Part shown: positions 13,486 through 39,825 of the stretch, piece after piece | How the letters are laid out: each line of letters opens with the position of its first letter | Position numbering within the stretch: the first letter of the stretch is position 1 | Made by a program: the position numbers and the translations under genes | Origin: an uncultured Pelagibacteraceae bacterium | Lineage (GTDB): Bacteria; Pseudomonadota; Alphaproteobacteria; Pelagibacterales; Pelagibacteraceae | Assembly: GCA_902589315.1 (NCBI GenBank) | Contig: CACISK010000006.1 | Coordinates: forward strand, 1 to 53,812 | Direction: 5' to 3' | DNA length: 53,812 nucleotides | Notes under the pieces: model-generated | Seen by the model: the letters and a program-made list of their open reading frames with translations, nothing else | Told to the model about the DNA's origin: nothing | Database searches by the model: none

Positions 13486-16335
13486 CTAATCCATGCTTGG
13501 GCATGTGCAGAATATATTTTTATCTCCATAAACATTGTCTACCCGGGCAACTGGAGGCCAAAATTTATTTTGTTTTAGAAAACTTGCAGGATATGCTGCT
13601 TCTTGTCTTGAATATTTATGTTCCCATACATCTGATGATAATTCAGTATCAGTGTGAGGAGCATTTTTAATTGGATTGTCAACTTTATCAAATTCACCTG
13701 ATTTAATTTTTTCAATTTCTTGTTTAATCTTAATTAAAGTGTCACAAAATCTGTCTATTTCTGACAAGCCTTCACTTTCAGTTGGCTCTATCATCATAGT
13801 GCCAGCAACAGGCCATGACATAGTTGGTGCGTGAAATCCAAAATCTATCATTCTTTTAGCAATATCTTCTTCTGTTACCCCTGTTTCAGATTTAATATTT
13901 CTAATATCAATTATGCACTCATGTGCAACATTTCCATTTGCACCTTTGTACAAAATCGGAAAGTGATCTTTTAATCTGTGAGCAATATAATTTGCGTTTA
14001 AAATTGCAACTTGGGTAGCAAGCTTTAATCCTGCTGATCCCATCATTTTAATATACATCCAAGAGATTGATAGAATACTTGAGCTACCCCAAGGAGCTGC
14101 TGATACTGCTCCAATTCCACTTGTTGGTCCGCAATCTTTTATTACTGGATGATTAGGCAGATAAACTTGTAAATGTTTTTTACAAGCTATAGGTCCCATT
14201 CCAGGTCCACCACCACCGTGAGGAATACAAAATGTTTTATGCAGATTAATATGACAAACATCTGGACCAAAATTTCCAGGCTTTGCAACTCCAACAAGGG
14301 CATTTAAATTTGCTCCATCCATATAGACCTGTCCACCATGTTTATGAACTAACTCACAAATATCTTTTATTTTTTCCTCAAATACTCCATGGGTAGATGG
14401 GTAAGTTACCATTAAAGCTGCGAGATTTTCCGAATGTTGCTCTACTTTTTTCTTTAAATCATCGAAATCTACATTTCCCTCTTTATCACAATTAACGACA
14501 ACCACTTTCATTCCAACCATTTGTGCGCTTGCTGGATTTGTACCATGTGCCGAACTTGGGATTAAACATATATTACGATGAGCTTCATCTCTATCTAAGT
14601 GATACTTTCTTATAACCATTAGACCTGCATATTCTCCTTGGGCGCCTGCATTAGGTTGTAGAGAAACACCGGAAAAACCTGTTATAGATCTCAACCAATT
14701 TTTTAAATCAGTAAACAAATCTCTAAAACCTTCCATTTGTTCAACTGGAACAAAAGGATGAGGTTCTGCAAATTCTTTCCAAGAAATCGGGATCATTTCA
14801 GCAGCAGCATTTAACTTCATTGTGCACGACCCAAGTGCTATCATAGTTCTATTCAATGCTATATCCTTATCCTCTAGCTTTTTAAGATATCTAAGCATTT
14901 CAGTTTCTGAATGATATAATTTAAAAATTGGATGCTCTAAATATTTTGAAGTTCTTAATAAATTTTTTGGTAAATTAGGTAATTTAACTGAAGGATCCTC
15001 TTTTTTTATTGATTCTGCAGCGTTAAAAATTTTTAATAATTGATTTACTCTATAAACGTTTTTTCTTTCATCGAAAGAGACAGCAAGCATTTCAGAATTT
15101 ACTTTTCGTATATTAACTTTATGATTTAGAGCATTTTTATAAATTTGATCAGTCTTTTCTTTGGTAATAATTGTAACAGTATCAAAAAAATAATCAGAAT
15201 AAATTTCATAACCTGACTGTTTTATTTTATCAGCAAAACTTTTTGCTAATTGAGAAACTCTTTCAGAAATATTTTTAATTCCATCTGGACCATGATAAAT
15301 AGCATATGCTGCTGAAACAATTGCTAATAAAGCTTGTGCAGTACAAATATTGCTTGTCGCCTTATCTCTTCTGATGTGTTGCTCTCTAGTTTGTAAAGAT
15401 AATCTGTATGCCTTGTTGCCATGTCTATCAACTGACACTCCAACAATTCTACCAGGCATTGATCTCTTATACTCGTCTTTAGTTGCAAAAAATGCTGCAT
15501 GTGGACCTCCATACCCCATTGGTATTCCAAATCGTTGAGAGCTTCCTACTGCTATATCAGCACCAAGTTCTCTTGGAGTTTTTAATTTTGCTAAAGCTAA
15601 TAAATCACAAGCTAATACAGCCTTACCATTTTTTTTATGAATTTTGCTAATTGCTTCACTTGGGTCTTTAATATCTCCTAAAGTTCCGGGATATTGTAAA
15701 ATTCCGCAAACAAGATCTTCTTTTAATTGGTCTAAAACTTCATCTTCTTTTCCAACTAAAACTTTTAACCCCATTGGTTCAGCTCTAGTTTGAATTACAT
15801 TTATAGTTTGAGGATGACAATCCTCAGATACAAAAACTAAATTGCTATCTTTTTTATTTAATCTATGACTAAGGCCCACAGCTTCTGCTGCTGCTGTACC
15901 TTCATCCAATAAAGAAGCATTAGCGATATCCATTCCAGTAAAATCAACAATCATTTGTTGAAAGTTTAACAACATCTCAAGTCTCCCTTGAGCTACTTCA
16001 GGCTGATAAGGTGTATATGATGTATACCAACCTGGATTTTCTAAAATATTTCTTAAAATTACATATGGCGTATAAGTTCCATAATAACCCATTCCAATAA
16101 AATTTGAGTAAACATGATTTTTTTTTGAAATTGCTCTTAATTTTCTTAACGCCTCATATTCTGAATTAGACTCTCCAATATTAAGCTCACCTTTAAACAT
16201 TATTTTTTCTGGAACGGTGTTATTCATTAAATCATCAATTGATTGATAATTTAATTCTTTTAACATTTTTGATTGGTCTTCTTTAGAAGGTCCGATGTGT
16301 CTTTTTATAAAATCTTTTTCTGAATTTGGTAGCAT
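13486..16335 (-). CDS. gcvP: Glycine dehydrogenase (decarboxylating), P-protein
   Basis: The PLP enzyme of the glycine cleavage system. It decarboxylates glycine and passes the aminomethyl group to the lipoyl arm of GcvH. At 949 residues it is the fused alpha-beta single-chain form. The PLP lysine lies in CHINLHKTFCIPHGGGGPGMGP. Other family sequences include FIGMGYYGTYTP near residue 80, NASLLDEGTAAAEA near 140 and TMKLNAAAEMIPISW at the start of the C-terminal half. The ATG overlaps the gcvH stop by one base. It is the third gene of gcvTHP under the tandem glycine riboswitch. Confidence 0.98.
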   Translation of the reverse strand: MLPNSEKDFIKRHIGPSKEDQSKMLKELNYQSIDDLMNNTVPEKIMFKGELNIGESNSEYEALRKLRAISKKNHVYSNFIGMGYYGTYTPYVILRNILENPGWYTSYTPYQPEVAQGRLEMLLNFQQMIVDFTGMDIANASLLDEGTAAAEAVGLSHRLNKKDSNLVFVSEDCHPQTINVIQTRAEPMGLKVLVGKEDEVLDQLKEDLVCGILQYPGTLGDIKDPSEAISKIHKKNGKAVLACDLLALAKLKTPRELGADIAVGSSQRFGIPMGYGGPHAAFFATKDEYKRSMPGRIVGVSVDRHGNKAYRLSLQTREQHIRRDKATSNICTAQALLAIVSAAYAIYHGPDGIKNISERVSQLAKSFADKIKQSGYEIYSDYFFDTVTIITKEKTDQIYKNALNHKVNIRKVNSEMLAVSFDERKNVYRVNQLLKIFNAAESIKKEDPSVKLPNLPKNLLRTSKYLEHPIFKLYHSETEMLRYLKKLEDKDIALNRTMIALGSCTMKLNAAAEMIPISWKEFAEPHPFVPVEQMEGFRDLFTDLKNWLRSITGFSGVSLQPNAGAQGEYAGLMVIRKYHLDRDEAHRNICLIPSSAHGTNPASAQMVGMKVVVVNCDKEGNVDFDDLKKKVEQHSENLAALMVTYPSTHGVFEEKIKDICELVHKHGGQVYMDGANLNALVGVAKPGNFGPDVCHINLHKTFCIPHGGGGPGMGPIACKKHLQVYLPNHPVIKDCGPTSGIGAVSAAPWGSSSILSISWMYIKMMGSAGLKLATQVAILNANYIAHRLKDHFPILYKGANGNVAHECIIDIRNIKSETGVTEEDIAKRMIDFGFHAPTMSWPVAGTMMIEPTESEGLSEIDRFCDTLIKIKQEIEKIKSGEFDKVDNPIKNAPHTDTELSSDVWEHKYSRQEAAYPASFLKQNKFWPPVARVDNVYGDKNIFCTCPSMD

Positions 16336-16715
16336 TATGCTGATGTCTCCTTTGAAAATTTTTCATATTCCTCTTTATTCATTAGACTGTCCATTTCTTT
16401 TTTGTCTTTTATTTTAAGTTTAAAAAACCATGCAGACTCTTCTGGGTCTTCATTTATTTTTGATGGATCATCAACTATCATTTGATTTGTATCTATAACT
16501 TCTCCACTAACAGGAGTGTAAACATCGCTAGCAGCTTTCGTTGACTCAACCACTCCAGCAGTTCCATCTTTATCAACATGTGAACCTTTCTCTGGGAGTT
16601 CTGCAAATACTATATCCCCAAGCATTTCTGTTGCATGCTTAGTTATTCCAATTGTAGCTTCTTCTCCATCTAGTTTAATCCATTCATGTTCTTTTGAATA
16701 TTTAACCTCAGACAT
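16335..16715 (-). CDS. gcvH: Glycine cleavage system H protein
   Basis: The 126-residue lipoyl carrier that shuttles the aminomethyl intermediate between GcvP, GcvT and lipoamide dehydrogenase. The lipoylated lysine is Lys60 in [19 protein letters not shown], and the N-terminal [20 protein letters not shown] is typical of the family. It overlaps gcvT by 8 bases at its start and gcvP by one base at its end, so all three are translationally coupled. Length is normal. Confidence 0.98.
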
Positions 16716-17814
16716 TAATTTCCCCTTTTACGTAATTTTTTTTATAAAACGGTAAGTTACAAATATTTGCAGGAATTTTTTTTCCTCTAACTTCAAGAAA
16801 TATTTTTGTATTTACAGTTGAATAACTATTATCGACATATCCCATTGCTATTGGATGTTCAACGCTCGGTCCAAATGTGCCACTTGTTACTTTCCCAATT
16901 TCTTGATTTTTATCATTGTAAATTTTGGTATTTCCTCTAGCAATTACTTTGCTGTCTGGTTTTATACCAACTCTTAATTTTTTTACTCCGCTTTGAAATT
17001 GATTTTTTAAAACTTCTGATCCAACAAATTCAGTCTCAATTCTGCTCTTAGGTATTGCCCATTTTAGATTAGCTTCGATAGGACTTGTATCATTGTTTAA
17101 ATCATTTCCATACAAGCAGAGTCCAGCTTCCATTCTTAATGTATCTCTTGCTCCTAAACCAATCAATTTAGATCCATTTTCTATAAAACTTTCTACAAAA
17201 GTTTCAGCATCACTATTTTTTATAGAAATTTCAAATCCATCCTCACCAGTATATCCTGATCTAGTTATGTATACTTTTTCATTTTTATAGACATAGTTGT
17301 TTCCGTTCATAAATTTTAGACTGTCACAACCAGGTATAACTTTATTTAAAACATTTTTTGCCTCAGGGCCCTGTAATGCAATTAATGACAATGACTCGTC
17401 AAGATTTAATTTATATTGATTATCAAGTTTAGATTTTATTACTTCATAATCATTGTACTTACATGCAGCATTCAAGATAATTAAAAATCCATCAGATGTT
17501 TTAGTAATTATCAGATCGTCCTGAATTCCTCCCTTGTTATTCATTAAAAATGAATACTTACTTTGATTAGTTTTCAATTTTTTCAAATCCGCAGGAAAAA
17601 TCTTCTCAAGATCATTTGTAAGATCATCACCACCCGATATAAATAATTGACCCATATGAGAAACATCAAAAATACCAGAGTGTGAACGTGTGTATTTATG
17701 CTCTTGTATAATTCCATCTTTATATTGGATGGGCATTTGATATCCAGCAAATTCTACAAGCTTTGCGCCGTACTTGATGTGGAGATTATTTAACGATGTT
17801 TTTTTTATACTCAT
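16708..17814 (-). CDS. gcvT: Glycine cleavage system aminomethyltransferase, T-protein
   Basis: A 368-residue tetrahydrofolate-dependent aminomethyltransferase that releases ammonia and makes 5,10-methylene-THF. Key regions: [20 protein letters not shown] and [13 protein letters not shown] near the start, [14 protein letters not shown] near residue 200, and [20 protein letters not shown] with the folate-binding acidic residues. It is the first gene of the gcv operon. Its ATG is the last triplet of a 12-base segment able to pair with the riboswitch linker, so initiation is probably controlled by glycine. Only a weak Shine-Dalgarno (AGAG) is present, and it lies inside that pairing segment. Confidence 0.97.
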
Positions 17815-17898
17815 ATTAACTCTTTATGCCCCCTCTGTCTTTTTGCCTGAGAGATTTGCTCCTTCGGCGAGAATAATTCTCTTTCCAGAGTTAATATG
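17812..17898 (-). promoter_or_regulatory. Start-codon sequestering inverted repeat of the glycine riboswitch
   Basis: The 12 bases at 17898-17887 in the mRNA sense (CATATTAACTCT) are perfectly complementary to 17823-17812 (AGAGTTAATATG), which hold the weak Shine-Dalgarno and the gcvT start codon. The first arm covers the inter-aptamer linker and the first four bases (CTCT) of the aptamer 2 P1 helix, so the two structures exclude each other. Inferred action: without glycine the start codon is hidden; with glycine P1 forms and the start codon is freed. Confidence 0.7.
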
Positions 17899-17968
17899 TA
17901 CGGTCCATTTGCCTGAGAGTTTCCGGGGTGGTTGCTCCTTCGGCGCTACAAAAGTAGTCTCTCCCGTA
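17833..17968 (-). ncRNA. Tandem glycine riboswitch (gcvT motif)
   Basis: Two glycine aptamers in the gcvT leader. Aptamer 1 spans 17968 down to 17899, closed by TACGG/CCGTA, with the conserved cores GCCGAAGGAGCAA and ACTCTCAGGCAAA. Aptamer 2 spans 17890 down to 17833, closed by CTCTG/CAGAG, with GCCGAAGGAGCAA and ATCTCTCAGGCAAAAAGAC. The linker is about 8 bases. Glycine riboswitches of this family usually turn on glycine cleavage when glycine is abundant. I see no intrinsic terminator between aptamer 2 and the gene, which argues for translational rather than transcriptional control. Confidence 0.95.
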
Positions 17969-18005
17969 TAAATTCTTATAACATAACTAATATAAATTTA
18001 TAGCT

Positions 18006-18878
18006 CTAATTTGTTGCACTTTTTTTTTTCATAAGTGAAAGAAATTGTATTAAAACTGCAAATATCACTATTAAACCACCAACTAAAACGCTGGTTGGAG
18101 GATTTTCATTTATAAACATCCACGCCCAAAAAGGTCCTAAAACTGCCTCTGATAACATTATGATTCCAACTAAGGCTGAAGGTGTAGATCTTGCACCAAT
18201 TGTAATGAAAATAAAACCAAAACCAAGTTGGAAAAAGCCAGCTAAAAATCCCAAAAAAATGTCATTTAAAGATATTAAGATCGTTTTAGACATAAAATAT
18301 CCAATGATCAAAGCAATAACGCCTGCAATAAATTGTAATGGAACCATATCTACACTTGGAAATTTTCTAACTATTAAAATTAATGTTGCGAATGATATTG
18401 GCATAATAAAAGCAGCAATATTTCCACTCATTTGTCCAACTGTTAATGAGCTTCCAACCATCAAAATTATTCCTGAAATTGCTAAAACTATAGAAGTTAA
18501 TGTTATTAAGTTTATTTTTTCTTTTAAAAAGATATATCCAAAGATTGCTAAAAATAATGTTTGGGTTTGAATTATAAAATTAGTATTTGCTACAGTAGTA
18601 TTATACATTGCAAAAACATAACCACTAAAGCCACACGCAAGTATAATCCCTCCAATAAGACCAGGGATTCCAGATTTATAAAATGCTGAAATAAAATTTT
18701 GCTTATAAATAATAATTAGAAAGATTAGAACTACAGTAATAAAAAAAACTGATCTCCAAAATAGAATTTGCCATAAAGTAGAGCCTTCGAAAGATTTGAC
18801 TATCAACCCTCCAAAACTTAGACTGAAAGCACCAAAAAAAATCAAAAGCGGCCCTGGTAATTTTGTAATTAAATTCAT
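18006..18878 (-). CDS. EamA/DMT-family transporter
   Basis: A 290-residue membrane protein with about ten hydrophobic segments in two EamA halves, first half from LLIFFGAFSLSFGGLIV and second half from MSGNIAAFIMPISFATLILIV. It starts with a 4-base ATGA overlap on the stop of pxpC, so it is the last gene of a minus-strand pxpB-pxpC-eamA operon. Co-transcription with 5-oxoprolinase subunits suggests transport of 5-oxoproline, glutamate or a related compound, but this is inference. It also lies 28 bases from the far end of the gcv leader region, facing the same way. Confidence 0.85.
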   Translation of the reverse strand: MNLITKLPGPLLIFFGAFSLSFGGLIVKSFEGSTLWQILFWRSVFFITVVLIFLIIIYKQNFISAFYKSGIPGLIGGIILACGFSGYVFAMYNTTVANTNFIIQTQTLFLAIFGYIFLKEKINLITLTSIVLAISGIILMVGSSLTVGQMSGNIAAFIMPISFATLILIVRKFPSVDMVPLQFIAGVIALIIGYFMSKTILISLNDIFLGFLAGFFQLGFGFIFITIGARSTPSALVGIIMLSEAVLGPFWAWMFINENPPTSVLVGGLIVIFAVLIQFLSLMKKKSATN

Positions 18879-39659: not shown

Positions 39660-39740
39660 TTTTTTATCCTTTAAATTTTTTGATAATTCTTTGTATTTAA
39701 ACTTTTAACTCATATTTTCATAAACTATAACTTGTTAAAG

Positions 39741-39749
39741 TTATCCACA
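39741..39749 (+). promoter_or_regulatory. DnaA-box-like site
   Basis: The sequence TTATCCACA matches the DnaA box consensus TTATNCACA exactly. It lies in the 217-base divergent region between the GFA gene and umuD. It is a single box; no second box was seen beside it, so DnaA binding is possible but chance cannot be excluded in AT-rich DNA. Confidence 0.4.
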
Positions 39750-39779
39750 GTGATACTAAATCTTGTTTCGATGTTCTCG

Positions 39780-39801
39780 TTTTGATTCACTTTTGATTCA
39801 C
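39780..39801. repeat. Two-copy tandem 11-base repeat upstream of umuD
   Basis: The unit TTTTGATTCAC occurs twice head to tail at 39780-39790 and 39791-39801. It lies 25 bases upstream of the umuD -35 element and could be an activator or repressor site. No known binding motif is recognised. Confidence 0.7.
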
Positions 39802-39825
39802 TTACAGACTCAAAATACAACCTAA

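Follow-up and report, generated by a model that had tools for sequence, protein, structure and literature searches.

In the SAR11 gcvT glycine riboswitch, the spacer between the two aptamers is very probably the off-arm in a translation switch that glycine activates. In the window—the whole 53,812-nt stretch of DNA that was analyzed—gcvT, gcvH, and gcvP are minus-strand genes lying 3′ of the riboswitch (Table 1). As the first-pass annotation had claimed, with coordinates and letters that prove correct, CATATTAACTCT (17898–17887, minus strand) matches AGAGTTAATATG (17823–17812) as a perfect reverse complement over 12 nt; the helix predicted from this match covers the Shine–Dalgarno (SD)-like sequence and the spacer besides the ATG. 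Because CUCU at 17890–17887 is common to the 12-bp helix and the 5′ strand of aptamer-2 P1, the two helices are mutually exclusive, which bears out the competition claimed earlier. The same annotation had noted the absence of a terminator, and our consensus scan of 17700–18060 agrees: Nothing resembling a terminator lies on the gene strand, the scan's one match being on the plus strand. Exclusive helices, compensatory change in both arms, and the lack of an intrinsic terminator together fit a translational ON platform, in which translation would depend on glycine.

Table 1. Coordinates of the gcv genes, aptamers, pairing arms, and candidate expression signals in the window
Feature	Position	Strand	Basis or remark
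gcvT	16708..17814	-	NCBIfam TIGR00528 and NF010093
gcvT start codon ATG	17812..17814	-	
gcvH	16335..16715	-	
gcvP	13486..16335	-	
Glycine aptamer 1	17891..17976	-	RF00504, 69.2 bits (gathering 32)
Glycine aptamer 2	17833..17890	-	RF03166 tandem alignment and conserved core by eye
Aptamer-2 P1	CUCUG 17890-17886 with CAGAG 17837-17833	-	
Aptamer-2 P1 3′ strand	17833..17837	-	Competes with start arm for CUCU
Anti-start arm: inter-aptamer linker CAUAUUAA plus CUCU of aptamer-2 P1	17887..17898	-	Exact complement, covariation
Start arm AGAGUUAAUAUG: SD-like AGAG, spacer UUAAU, gcvT AUG	17812..17823	-	
SD-like AAAGAG, 5 nt 5′ of ATG	17820..17825	-	Sequence reading; putative role
TTATAA, candidate −10-like box just 5′ of aptamer-1 P1	17976..17981	-	Putative

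The tandem assignment follows from an aptamer 1 above the curated RF00504 score, an adjoining second aptamer, and a glycine-metabolism gene downstream. The final bases of aptamer 1 overlap the linker arm. Aptamer 2 alone does not rise above the RF00504 gathering threshold in the window scan; its conserved core, GCCGAAGGAGCAAA...CUCUCAGGC, was read by eye. With the tandem model for the glycine-GGAnGA riboswitch (RF03166), both aptamers align; the score of 79 bits (E 6.3e-17) is under the model's gathering cut-off of 110 bits. Elsewhere in the window, the SAR11_0636 sRNA occupies 39733–39822 on the minus strand (Rfam RF01827, 88.8 bits).

For comparison across SAR11, we combined a genus search (399 genomes, 272 with a match) with an order search (297 genomes, partly overlapping the genus set; 200 with a match); where contigs of named genomes were scanned, the best 80 of 228 relatives were used. 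Among the matches listed were 274 Pelagibacterales loci, 240 of them with gcvT; 238 were parsed, yielding 143 leaders counted as distinct over their last 160 nt, where duplicate loci merge. Two loci (L204 and L227) had too short an upstream sequence and were left out. Because best-of-list matches were used, the sample is skewed toward strong aptamer scores and close relatives. Arms were anchored through the alignment, not through complementarity, and the tree was built from 300 nt of gcvT coding sequence.

Pairing between the arms is maintained throughout this sample. Across the 143 distinct Pelagibacterales gcvT leaders, 98.25% of the cells at the 12 pairs hold standard pairs, vs. only 35–48% in registers slid by one to three positions. 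Collapsing the leaders to their 28 distinct arm combinations leaves 94.9% standard pairs, compared with 87.0% when partners are shuffled (maximum 91.4%; 0 of 5000 shuffles reach the observed value). On the gcvT tree, five in-register double changes preserve pairing and none breaks it, so the compensatory arm changes that had been proposed as a check of the first-pass reading are indeed found; the 132 off-register column pairs together hold three preserving and four breaking double changes. Single changes away from Watson–Crick pairs are equally structured: At pairs 3–11, 18 lead to G-U, 0 to A-C, and 3 to other mismatches, and this central tolerance of G-U but never of A-C points to an RNA helix. 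At pairs 1, 2, and 12, 20 single changes produce mismatches and 3 produce G-U. Since changes at these end pairs mostly gave mismatches, the helix ends are loose; of the 143 leaders, 15 have a break at pair 1 and 10 at pair 12.

The arms vary together among lineages. The combination CAUAUUAACUCU/AGAGUUAAUAUG is found in 78 of the 143 leaders, CGUAAUAACUCU/AGAGUUAUUAUG comes mainly from another genus, and AAUUAAAACUCU/AGAGUUUUAAUG occurs in a single leader of genus g4. L186 and L189, of genus g4, form just 9 and 10 of the 12 pairs. The start codon lies within the 12-nt arm in 131 of 143 leaders. In the other 12, the ATG is downstream of the arm, so that the SD and spacer alone are covered, and both arms differ jointly; the AUG lies farther downstream with UGUAAUAACUCU/AGGGUUAUUACA and likewise with AAUAUUAACUCU/AGAGUUAAUAUU. 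One SAR11 gcvT leader (L223) apparently has a GTG start codon, inside the arm. Start-arm columns have entropies of 0–0.83 bits, vs. 0.99–1.67 at the six positions immediately 5′. The 3′ strand of P1 reads CAGAG in 85 leaders and CAGAU in 58; the C of CUCU facing this last position is kept in 141 of 143 leaders despite having U, not G, as its P1 partner in those 58, which fits an additional pairing with the SD. Just 3′ of aptamer-2 P1, the G run at 17830–17833 includes three conserved positions (entropy 0–0.23) with variable columns on either side.

Thermodynamic models place the ligand-free leader in the masked state. RNAfold without ligand returns a minimum free energy (MFE) structure containing at least 8 of the 12 anti-start pairs in 142 of 143 leaders (the exception is L186), and the mean pair probability of the anti-start helix over the set is 0.98. 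With aptamer-2 P1 imposed as a constraint, the median penalty is 5.3 kcal/mol (range −4.0 to 9.4; 143 leaders); for the window RNA, the masked form has −40.5 kcal/mol, vs. −33.2 kcal/mol for the open form with both P1 stems. These energies come from a folding model that leaves out glycine binding and aptamer tertiary contacts. Given that the model favors the masked state, glycine and tertiary contacts must pay for opening, or the switch is kinetic.

From sequence, covariation, and predicted folding, we read the element with considerable confidence as a tandem glycine riboswitch with a translational glycine-ON platform, whose anti-start arm would consist of the linker and the 5′ strand of aptamer-2 P1. 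Without glycine, these segments would form 12 bp with the gcvT SD, spacer, and start codon and block ribosome entry. With glycine, the aptamers would hold CUCUG in aptamer-2 P1, and the 12-bp helix would lose its CUCU half; the freed start region would then permit translation of gcvT-gcvH-gcvP and cleavage of glycine. RNA polymerase reaches the linker and aptamer 2 ahead of the start arm, so strand displacement during or soon after transcription probably decides between the two helices.

Complementarity of this length could be sought in the base composition, the sequence being A+T-rich (GC 30%), yet chance is refuted by the shuffles and by the covariation, and we regard its probability as negligible. 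The longest Watson–Crick complement between the leader and the −20 to +9 region is 12 nt, and none of 2000 approximate dinucleotide shuffles of the leader reaches it (mean 5.7, maximum 11); 12-mer complements within 150 nt upstream occur at 6/7655 and 4/7655 sampled places on the window's two strands. A DNA-level inverted repeat, such as an operator bridged by a regulator, would be expected to show the same long, widely spaced repeat. Such a site would treat G-U and A-C alike, contrary to their 18-to-0 count at pairs 3–11, and the arms coincide with P1 and the SD; that count makes a DNA site very improbable.

Two further readings accept an RNA helix. The helix might be a constitutive translation attenuator or an mRNA-stability element placed between the aptamers and the gene, and the model energies, which favor it over P1 without ligand by the median given above and by 7.3 kcal/mol in the window, are compatible with that role. 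A pure attenuator, however, needs no aptamer strand, whereas here P1 also uses CUCU, and conservation extends to P1 as well as to the arm; moreover, the family's known role at gcvT is glycine-responsive ON control (Bacillus subtilis, Neisseria gonorrhoeae). We therefore consider an attenuator or stability element unlikely. The logic could also be reversed, with the linker/start helix acting as an outer P1 that is stabilized by glycine-bound aptamer 2 and turns gcvT off: The helix does enclose aptamer 2, whose P2 and P3 remain formed in the MFE. Against this glycine-OFF arrangement, the native P1 beside the binding core is displaced, 21 unpaired nucleotides are left at the 3′ junction, and repression by glycine of its own cleavage makes little sense. 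The SAR11 element is also published as glycine-activated (Tripp 2009, as far as the covered parts of the record extend), and we judge the glycine-OFF arrangement quite improbable.

The glycine-ON reading has its closest described counterpart in the N. gonorrhoeae gcvT switch, which passages of PMC13104608 present as a translational glycine-ON tandem switch with an aptamer-2 sequence masking the gcvT ribosome-binding site. Tandem aptamers, a gcvT start masked without glycine, and translation turned on by glycine are common to that report and to the mechanism proposed here. For N. gonorrhoeae, the same passages propose that nucleotides of aptamer-2 P3a, P3, and P1 cover the bases immediately 5′ of the start codon, whereas in SAR11 the inter-aptamer linker and the P1 5′ strand would do the masking, and aptamer-2 P2 and P3 are predicted to stay formed. 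The B. subtilis gcvT riboswitch shares the tandem aptamers, the glycine-ON response, and the gcvT operon; it differs in its transcription-terminator platform (both from parts of PMC5666159), and SAR11 linkers are without a GANG motif. Another inter-aptamer linker with a regulatory role is described, in the sections covered of PMC11508383, from the same organism group (Pelagibacter ubique), but that linker keeps one aptamer from responding to SAM, whereas the gcvT linker would mask a start site. According to a passage of PMC2864753 that cites Tripp 2009, SAR11 glycine-metabolism genes carry translation-modulating riboswitches, and the SAR11 gcvT and glcB tandem glycine riboswitches of the published record (Tripp 2009; PMC2704228; PMC2211319; sources covered in part) are the same elements as those studied here. 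Within the titles and passages covered of the literature on glycine and SAR11 riboswitches, a scope outside which Tripp 2009 falls, we found neither the linker/start helix nor its covariation. Pending Tripp 2009 and probing, the linker-based anti-start arm is a new form of translational glycine riboswitch platform.

A similar helix recurs on most of the sampled SAR11 leaders that lack gcvT. Such loci number 34 among the first 194 collected, and 33 were parsed (all but L013). One downstream gene, at L160, is confirmed as malate synthase G by a profile match; in most of the other leaders the downstream product starts with similar residues, as judged by eye. Passages in Meyer 2009 (PMC2704228), Kazanov 2007 (PMC2211319), and PMC5069720 record a glycine riboswitch on SAR11 glcB, which encodes malate synthase. 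In 29 of 33 leaders, similar arms, typically CAUAACACUCU with AGUGCUAUG, form at least 9 of 12 pairs when the best of eight registers is taken, a choice of register that flatters the set; the pairing is missing in L125, L178, L184, and L192. Inside the helix, 27 of the 29 fitting leaders share a mismatch at pair 7, with a linker A opposite C (e.g., L008, L142, and L160) or opposite A (L009, L070, and L098), and this fixed mismatch may tune helix stability. In the MFE structures, the AUG is paired with the linker or P1 in 27 of 33 leaders and is free of both in 6, including L090 and L120.

Other Alphaproteobacteria give a different picture. Among the matches listed were 69 class-level loci, 66 with a gcvT match and 62 parsed (unparsed: L299, L319, L321, and L341, of which L319 belongs to the window's own family). 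Complementarity between linker and start region has P < 0.05 in 7 of these 62 parsed gcvT leaders and P < 0.01 in 2 (median P 0.47), and we reject the idea that the platform is general in the class. For the strongest case, L302, and its order, inspection by eye shows that some leaders pair in part and that others do not keep the pairing; L276 and L316 have too few relatives for comparison. A SAR11-type gcvT leader with a GcvT identity of 65% sits on a contig (L344; G747 C29) in a genome of another order, that of G647, and reflects either bin contamination or transfer. Several gcvT leaders in the series L275–L343 have, by eye, a hairpin 3′ of aptamer 2 with CUGUC or CUCUGUC directly before the SD; these motifs could perhaps pair with the P1 3′ strand GACAG(AG), as part of a different platform.

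We also asked how the SAR11 linker relates to the leader–linker kink-turn. The motif GANG, which we take to be the kink-turn strand partly on account of the Rfam name GGAnGA, occurs in 0 of 143 SAR11 linkers vs. 38 of 63 other alphaproteobacterial linkers, and GA occurs in 39 of 135 SAR11 leaders vs. 39 of 55 in the outgroup, both contrasts being confounded by base composition. A test for the leader/linker P0 duplex gives P < 0.05 in 24 of 135 SAR11 and 5 of 55 outgroup cases and does not separate the groups. By comparison, part of PMC5666159 reports a leader–linker kink-turn P0 in >90% of tandem glycine riboswitches, a feature that does not strictly define the class.

The sequence upstream of aptamer-1 P1 is variable in SAR11. 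Of 135 leaders, 85 carry a TATAA-type pattern in the 35 nt preceding the core, usually 12–16 nt from it, and 50 lack the pattern there; if TTATAA in the window were a −10 box, it would leave scant leader before the aptamer. We treat the box as a candidate because a consensus scan of the window region returned no promoter. In passages of PMC5069720, reads of a SAR11 glycine riboswitch start at P1 or ≤15 nt before it. Variable upstream sequence, TATAA pattern, and published read starts together suggest a nearly leaderless riboswitch whose linker is free for the switch. Judging from the sequences compared, the linker probably became available as an anti-start arm once the promoter had moved up to aptamer-1 P1. 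We lean, by a slight margin, toward a broader proposal: that the SAR11 gcvT and glcB glycine riboswitches form a leaderless, kink-turn-free tandem subtype, in which genome streamlining brought the promoter right up to aptamer-1 P1 and so eliminated the kink-turn's leader half, the linker thus released took on the anti-start role, and control proceeds without the kink-turn needed in B. subtilis. Because the duplex test does not separate the groups and composition confounds the motif counts, we put this leaderless, kink-turn-free step forward as a proposal.

If the subtype is real, a single 8-nt spacer does double duty, linking the aptamers and providing the off-switch, and if SAR11 tandem switches work without a leader–linker kink-turn, the tandem design can do without that element, a debated point. 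Using the inter-aptamer linker itself as the off-arm would make for an economical expression platform. The helix provides a specific model, backed by covariation, for how glycine cleavage may be controlled in some of the ocean's most abundant bacteria, where a similar device probably also controls malate synthase.
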